Shown here piece by piece: positions 45,809-47,424 of a stretch of 47,747 nt of DNA; the stretch's first letter is position 1, and every line of letters starts with the position of its first letter. The notes under the pieces were generated by a model. That model had not been told where the DNA came from. It searched no databases and saw only the letters and a list, made by a program, of their open reading frames with translations. The position numbers and the translations under genes were made by a program. Location of the stretch: NCBI RefSeq assembly GCF_028278985.1, contig NZ_JANQTA010000023.1, positions 1 to 47,747 on the forward strand. Direction: 5' to 3'. Source of the stretch: Candidatus Nitrosopumilus sp. GTDB lineage: Archaea; Thermoproteota; Nitrososphaeria; Nitrososphaerales; Nitrosopumilaceae.

Positions 45809-46027
45809 ATGTTCCCAAAAAATGTCTTTACCGCATTTGCAGTAATTTTTTTCATTAGCGCTGCAATAATTCCAATTCAAAATCTAGTGGTTTGGGGACC
45901 TGATTTTGTTTATGGATTTTACATCTCAAATGAGATTACTGCTGAAAAACTATCAATTGGAGTAATTGGTTTTGGGTTTGTATTACTGTATGTTGGATAT
46001 CGAAAAAAGGATTCATCATACTTGTAA
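45809..46027 (+). CDS. Small two-helix membrane protein
   Basis: 72 residues. Two helices (about 7-28 and 48-65) are joined by an aromatic loop (VVWGPDFVYGFYISNE). The C-terminal tail is basic (YRKKDSSYL). No family recognised. The twin operator begins 9 bases after its stop. Confidence 0.65.
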   Translation: MFPKNVFTAFAVIFFISAAIIPIQNLVVWGPDFVYGFYISNEITAEKLSIGVIGFGFVLLYVGYRKKDSSYL

Positions 46028-46035
46028 AATCAGAA

Positions 46036-46088
46036 ATGTATGTTCATATGCACAAACATAGAAAATGTGTGTTCAAATGAACAAACAT
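46036..46088. promoter_or_regulatory. Tandem 24-bp palindromic operators upstream of a winged-helix regulator
   Basis: Two 24-base units (46036-46059 and 46065-46088) agree at 21 of 24 positions. Each has the dyad ATGT-N-TGTTCA...ACA-AACAT. The second holds the perfect arms TGTTCA/TGAACA around AA (46070-46083), and the first has CATATG at its centre. Unit starts are 29 bases apart. A further TGTTCA half-site lies at 46112-46117. The downstream regulator gene begins at 46166, suggesting autoregulation. Confidence 0.7.
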
Positions 46089-46165
46089 TTTTAGAATTTA
46101 TGCCTATTTTCTGTTCAAACCAGTACATTTCACAAATGGACCAGACATCTTTTCATTAGATTATT

Positions 46166-46630
46166 TTGATTTGGATTGTGAAAGATAGGGCATCTATGCT
46201 AGTTGATTTAGTCAATGAAAACCCTGGATTACATTTTAGTAAAATTTTGGAAATAACGGGGATGAAAAATGGGGTATTGGCACATTATGCAAAAAAATTA
46301 GAATCTGATGGAAAATTACGAATTCACAAAGAAAACAATCGTTCATATTTTTTTAGCCCAGAAATTAGCCTTGATTTTATTCCGATTGTAATCTACTTGA
46401 GAAAATCAACTCCTAAATCCATTTTACTGTCATTAAAAAATGAAAATGGACTGAATTTTAAGAAAATTGTAAAAATAGTTGGCAAATCCCCTCCTACTGT
46501 TTCTCAAAATCTTACAAAATTACTGAAATCTGGTCTAATAGAATTAAAGCTTGAAGACAATGAAAAAAAATATTTTCTAATAAAAAATCAATTAATGTTA
46601 GATTTAATTAAAAAATACAGTTTTCAATAA
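46166..46630 (+). CDS. Double winged-helix transcription regulator
   Basis: 154 residues, TTG start (GTG 46178 and ATG 46196 are in frame). Two wHTH domains are fused: residues about 10-70 (ENPGLHFSKILEITGMKNGV, LAHYAKKLESDGKLRIHKE) and about 78-150 (NENGLNFKKIVKIVGKSPPT, VSQNLTKLLKSGLIELKLED). The family resembles ArsR/MarR-like regulators seen in Nitrososphaerota. No ligand or metal site is evident. The twin operators upstream are its likely own binding sites. Confidence 0.82.
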   Translation: MIWIVKDRASMLVDLVNENPGLHFSKILEITGMKNGVLAHYAKKLESDGKLRIHKENNRSYFFSPEISLDFIPIVIYLRKSTPKSILLSLKNENGLNFKKIVKIVGKSPPTVSQNLTKLLKSGLIELKLEDNEKKYFLIKNQLMLDLIKKYSFQ

Positions 46631-46752
46631 TTTATTTAATAATTTTTATTTTTTTCAAAATTCTATAATTTGAAAACAACATCGATGTTCCTACCAGTAC
46701 AATTTTCTAATGTACCAATTTTGTTTTTAATAAATTCTCAAAATCATATTCA

Positions 46753-47424
46753 ATGACTTTTCTAAGACAAAACAAATTGTCTATGATCGCAGGTACAGCA
46801 ATTCTAACTATTGCTCTAACATTTGGCGGTTATTCATTTGCAAGTCACAGCTTTGAAGCTGGTGTAACAGGTGACAATATCCCTGATAACACACACATCA
46901 CCTTGAATGGCATTACATTGGGACCCGGTGAGGTCATGCCAGTGTATGATGCAAGTCCAAACTATGTATCAGGCCATTTCTTGCTAACTGATGAATGTGT
47001 ACTAGTTGACGGTGAAGCAGGTGACGACGCAGAAAATGACACTTACCAACCTAGAGTAGCAGTTATTGCCGGACATATTGATGAATTTAATGCAGCAACT
47101 CACATCGAGCCAATGCCATTATTCTACATCAATCTTGTATCAAACCAAGATAATAGATGCGTATGGCATGCACATATTCCAGACCCACTAAATGGTGGAG
47201 CACCAAGAGTCACTGATATTGCAATTGCAAATCTAGGTGAATCTGATGTTACATTCTCTGGTCAACATGTTATTGACATCAATATTCAAAGCGTACTAGG
47301 AAGCATTGGTGATGATCCTTATGAGGGTGGACCAGTTGTTATCTTGGACGAGAATCCAATCTTCGATCTAAATGATGACGACACTACAAACGATGGTTTA
47401 GGCCATAGCGGAGGTCACAGCTAA
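46753..47424 (+). CDS. Secreted protein with His-rich C-terminus
   Basis: 223 residues. A signal peptide (about 1-30, cleaved near SFASHS) is followed by a beta-rich domain with DNTHITLNGITLGPGEVMPV, two Cys (TDECVLV, NRCVWHAH) and many Asp residues. It ends GLGHSGGHS, so a metal site is possible. I do not recognise the family. The next gene starts two bases after its stop and is also secreted, so the two may be produced together. Confidence 0.75.
   Translation: MTFLRQNKLSMIAGTAILTIALTFGGYSFASHSFEAGVTGDNIPDNTHITLNGITLGPGEVMPVYDASPNYVSGHFLLTDECVLVDGEAGDDAENDTYQPRVAVIAGHIDEFNAATHIEPMPLFYINLVSNQDNRCVWHAHIPDPLNGGAPRVTDIAIANLGESDVTFSGQHVIDINIQSVLGSIGDDPYEGGPVVILDENPIFDLNDDDTTNDGLGHSGGHS

Follow-up and report, generated by a model that had tools for sequence, protein, structure and literature searches.

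Two conserved palindromes, motif A and motif B, lie upstream of a double winged-helix regulator gene in the window (the whole 47,747-nucleotide stretch analyzed, which is the entire contig C6 of a 1.69-Mb genome). We consider it likely that motif A is a paired operator of a dimeric factor other than the neighbouring gene product and that the regulator itself binds motif B, the two together making a two-step circuit. Motifs, positions and conservation are what we observed, and from them we infer binding, the direction of regulation and the assignment of proteins to motifs. The features of the locus are listed below; promoter distances at the regulator are counted from 46178, and G labels are the genome handles of the search tool.

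46036..46059, no strand: distal copy of motif A, 24-bp dyad ATGTATGTTCATATGCACAAACAT, starting 142 bp ahead of GTG 46178
46065..46088, no strand: proximal copy of motif A, 24-bp dyad ATGTGTGTTCAAATGAACAAACAT, starting 113 bp ahead of GTG 46178
46100..46110, + strand: ATGCCTATTTT, a possible but weak extra promoter element, sole exact copy in the window
46112..46117, + strand: TGTTCA, the former "half-site"
46121..46142, no strand: motif B copy 1, CAGTACA-N9-TGGACC, its end 35 bp ahead of GTG 46178, a position shared by G002, G101 and G123
46178..46630, + strand: double winged-helix regulator, 150 aa; Pfam HTH_24 twice and HTH_HVO_0163_N; start set by orthologue comparison
46695..46716, no strand: motif B copy 2, CAGTACA-N9-TGTACC, its end 36 bp ahead of ATG 46753, a distance also seen in G002, G101, G123, G049 and G038
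46753..47424, + strand: likely target gene, for a signal-peptide-like secreted protein outside any Pfam family; six genomes have orthologues of 64-84% identity
47426..47746, + strand: another secreted protein (HGG...), truncated at the contig end, likely in the same operon; full-length relative in L037

The preliminary description had reported twin 24-bp dyads, 21 of 24 bases identical and 29 bases apart, and this was confirmed. The copies start 29 bases apart with a gap of 5 bases between them, and each pairs at 10 of its 12 dyad positions; near-dyad pairs up to 60 bp apart were absent from all 60 shuffled versions of the window that preserved its dinucleotides. In the whole genome, the 24-bp pattern with 3 mismatches allowed occurred at this locus only (control 0). 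The genome search for a regulon was pattern-based, and the search with the dyad core that had been proposed for this purpose, run with one mismatch, returned 14 sites versus 5 in the control and was too noisy to define one. The hexamer TGTTCA at 46112, previously read as an additional half-site, is indeed present, but that role was not borne out. Because the hexamer occurs less often in the window than expected (41 versus 61 times) and is unconserved in the compared promoters, we give it little weight and reject it as a third site; it is probably there by chance. A sigma-70 promoter scan was set aside as inapplicable to archaea.

Motif A extends well beyond this locus. Its 22-bp core, TGTTTGTTCA-NN-TGAACAAACA, was found with up to 2 mismatches at 38 sites in 25 of 95 genomes of the same genus, and the reversed palindrome, a control matched to it in composition and symmetry, at none; the proximal copy in the window has 1 mismatch to this genus consensus. 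Two cores exactly 29 bp apart occurred in 10 genomes of the genus including the present one (control 0), and an additional degenerate pair in G112 brings the number with 29-bp pairing to 11, while the spacing is 24 bp in G007 and G010. The 29-bp pairs fall into six gene contexts, the commonest of which is a phasin-like gene, a name that is our own reading of a sequence with only a below-cut-off Pfam match (DUF4745):

G002, G033, G104, G120, G126: 137-aa phasin-like gene
G117: TrmB-family gene
G102, G114: HTH_45 gene region
G013: unrelated locus
G112: flanked by a TrmB-type gene and a FlaJ-type membrane-protein gene (by eye)
window: promoter of the 46178 regulator

Among 16 aligned phasin-like promoters, 11 carry a site when 3 mismatches are allowed; it stands some 55-60 bp above a TATA element that is itself conserved, and the two sites of G002 start at -145/-116, as compared with -142/-113 in the window. 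Dyad symmetry, genus-wide recurrence, the recurrent 29-bp pairing and the uncompensated base changes described below lend good support to the earlier claim of an operator for a dimeric regulator. It is very probable that the twin palindromes are genuine switches for a DNA-binding protein, used in genomes across the genus, and cooperative binding at them is plausible.

Some further observations concern the surroundings and distribution of these sites. Immediately 5' of the TATATA box, the phasin-like promoters (L108-L124) carry tandem CATTACCA repeats that are more strongly conserved than motif A. The ATGCCTATTTT element of the window lies downstream of motif A, and congeners have similar stretches (AYGCCTA) in several of their phasin-like and TrmB promoters (L171, L174, L178). 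Among records that carry a name, the palindrome comes mostly from Nitrosopumilus, Nitrosarchaeum and other thaumarchaeal MAGs, which suggests that the window belongs to a Nitrosopumilus-like ammonia oxidiser; a Ruminobacter MAG (RUG12170; L138, L144) contains two exact copies of the 22-bp palindrome. Pairs in other genera were 3-mismatch matches only, with one sequence shared by G224, G234 and G253, and were deemed noise.

The palindromes might instead work at the RNA level, forming a hairpin that terminates the small ORF 45809-46027, the end of which lies 9 bases before them. As RNA, the stretch shows strong folding (z=-4.9), a T-run lies 3' of the second copy, and exact copies of motif A with T-tracts are found at gene 3' ends in L057 and L058. 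However, the 34 motif A sites depart from consensus 44 times on one side of the dyad and only once in a compensatory manner, which favours DNA recognition over a conserved RNA stem and fits a protein dimer that would tolerate variation in one half-site. Moreover, the phasin-like sites lie upstream of promoters and have no T-run in the direction of the gene, and a terminator scan did not flag the twin dyads. We therefore regard a terminator function as very improbable. The exact palindromes near gene 3' ends in L054, L057 and L058, two of them with T-tracts, are terminator-like and were set aside.

The earlier reading of the downstream gene as a double winged-helix regulator was borne out by the two HTH_24 stretches and the HTH_HVO_0163_N match. 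The start proposed for it, TTG 46166, is less convincing: since the orthologues begin VTDR (G002, GTG), MSDR (G101, GTG) and MKDR (G123, ATG) and the window reads VKDR at 46178, GTG 46178 is more likely the start codon. AlphaFold modelling of the single regulator sequence was confident for the N-terminal winged helix alone (mean pLDDT 54.5), and a PDB sequence search gave one weak match, 1uly. The regulator does not qualify as an MsvR member in NCBIfam, scoring 39.4 bits where the cut-off is 220. In G010 (L039, C116), the corresponding locus looks degraded, with a truncated target, a fragment of the regulator and a transposase-like ORF nearby.

Motif B, a CAGTACA-N9-TGNACC dyad that had been missed before, offers this regulator a likely binding site of its own. 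A variable-gap search of the genome found two sites only, both at this locus; one free base added a single site, C2:12416, which has no inner symmetry. In six genomes, ten promoters have motif B 35 or 36 bp ahead of the start codon. In G102, G114 and G012 it also precedes further secreted-protein genes, by 36-37 bp. A point against its assignment to the regulator is that in G049 and G038 it precedes the target gene, with the regulator not beside it. Because the motif is conserved in the promoter of the regulator as well as in that of the neighbouring operon, a pattern typical of the operator of a local regulator, copy 1 is likely the regulator's operator at its own promoter and copy 2 that of the secreted-protein operon. 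On this adjacency and conservation, motif B is likelier than motif A to be the regulator's site. In G013 (C1:1226942-1227110), eight tandem copies of CAGTACATGAAACC(G/A)CTGAACC spaced by 21 bp fit the motif B pattern without inner symmetry.

Which protein binds motif A is a separate matter. The preliminary description had assigned the twin dyads to the product of the 46166 reading frame, to be checked in the promoters of its orthologues, and that comparison told against the assignment: the orthologous regulators of G002 and G123 have no motif A in their promoters, and G101 retains a half-site only, TGAACAAA at -105. Adjacency, the frequency of autoregulation and the presence of two winged-helix domains in the protein would all suit autoregulation through cooperative binding of the neighbour to the twin dyads. 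However, all the orthologous promoters that lack motif A have motif B instead, and the commonest motif A site belongs to an unrelated gene, the phasin-like one; the motif A twin of G002 lies before its phasin-like gene. In addition, no member of the regulator family (E<=1e-8) was found in G013 or G032, both of which have motif A, and G013 is one contig with 99% completeness. Binding of motif A by the neighbour is thus improbable, a caution that the nearest regulator gene need not bind the adjacent operator. Motif A accompanies this regulator in one genome only, since even G101, which has the closest target protein, keeps no more than the half-site, and its role here could therefore be recent or minor.

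Two other candidates fit parts of the distribution. A TrmB-family regulator (L061 clade; copy C3:126563 in G000) that binds motif A, autoregulates and controls other genes is possible, though we hold it to be unlikely. Motif A occurs in the own promoters of three TrmB genes (G012, G103 and G117, the last with a 29-bp twin), and the clade is present in 14 of 25 motif-A genomes versus 3 of 70 others (p=1e-7, or p=2e-4 when only genomes of at least 95% completeness are counted, both uncorrected for genome relatedness). On the other hand, the clade (E<=1e-60) is missing from the complete or near-complete motif-A genomes G013, G102, G112 and G036, most TrmB copies have no motif A upstream, and the known TrmB-family motifs TACTN3AGTA and TATCACN5GTGATA differ from motif A (PMC4158304). 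We rate as less probable than this an HTH-like protein (L109:2452-3033 type) whose gene lies in the vicinity of the phasin-like gene. It is found in 24 of the 25 motif-A genomes, including G000, and in several genomes the two genes stand close together, but it also occurs in 40 of the 70 genomes that lack a good motif A, a contrast that incomplete genomes inflate. It was not found in G010, which has a motif A site, and its DNA-binding nature is putative, its Pfam matches being below cut-off. The co-occurrence counts for both candidates are confounded by relatedness and assembly gaps, and each candidate misses some motif-A genomes.

We return to the two-step circuit, in which a dimeric factor of this Nitrosopumilus-like genus, distinct from the neighbouring product, would bind the motif A pair. 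The twin dyads lie 90-142 bp upstream of the regulator start codon. Because this is well above the likely core promoter, the factor would probably act from a distance to activate, or otherwise tune, transcription of the regulator gene. Motif B, with copies immediately ahead of the regulator's core promoter and of the secreted-protein operon, would in turn be bound by the regulator. The predicted cascade would thus run from the motif A factor to the regulator and on to the secreted proteins, with the regulator also controlling itself. In the Thermococcales TrmBL1/Tgr system, operators upstream of BRE/TATA are associated with activation and those downstream with repression (PMC4158304). By analogy, motif A may serve activation, given its remote upstream position, and motif B, which adjoins the core promoter on its upper side, could play either an activating or a repressing role. 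More tentatively, a single dimeric factor acting through 29-bp palindrome pairs might serve a genus-wide motif A regulon, controlling the phasin-like gene and several downstream regulators, among them the motif B regulator that would govern the secreted-protein operon.

The two conserved palindromes provide testable starting points, motif B with a likely regulator and target operon and motif A with its sites across the genus. Marine ammonia-oxidising archaea are abundant. Neither motif was reported in the literature searched, the coverage of which was incomplete.

In domain make-up, the 46178 product resembles archaeal ArsR/MarR-like double winged-helix regulators (Pfam HTH_HVO_0163_N and HTH_24), among which we found no characterised orthologue. 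The TGM operator of TrmBL1/Tgr, TATCAC-N5-GTGATA (PMC4158304), is likewise an archaeal palindromic operator common to several genes of a group. Motif A differs from it in sequence and spacer and in occurring in 29-bp pairs. Tandem palindromic operators can be bound by interacting dimers, as at OR of phage lambda. The motif A twin shares with that type two near-identical dyads at fixed spacing, but the spacing is 29 bp, or 24 bp in two genomes (a difference of about half a helical turn), and cooperativity here is putative. Tandem palindromic operators are already known as a kind, and the motif A twin is a new example.
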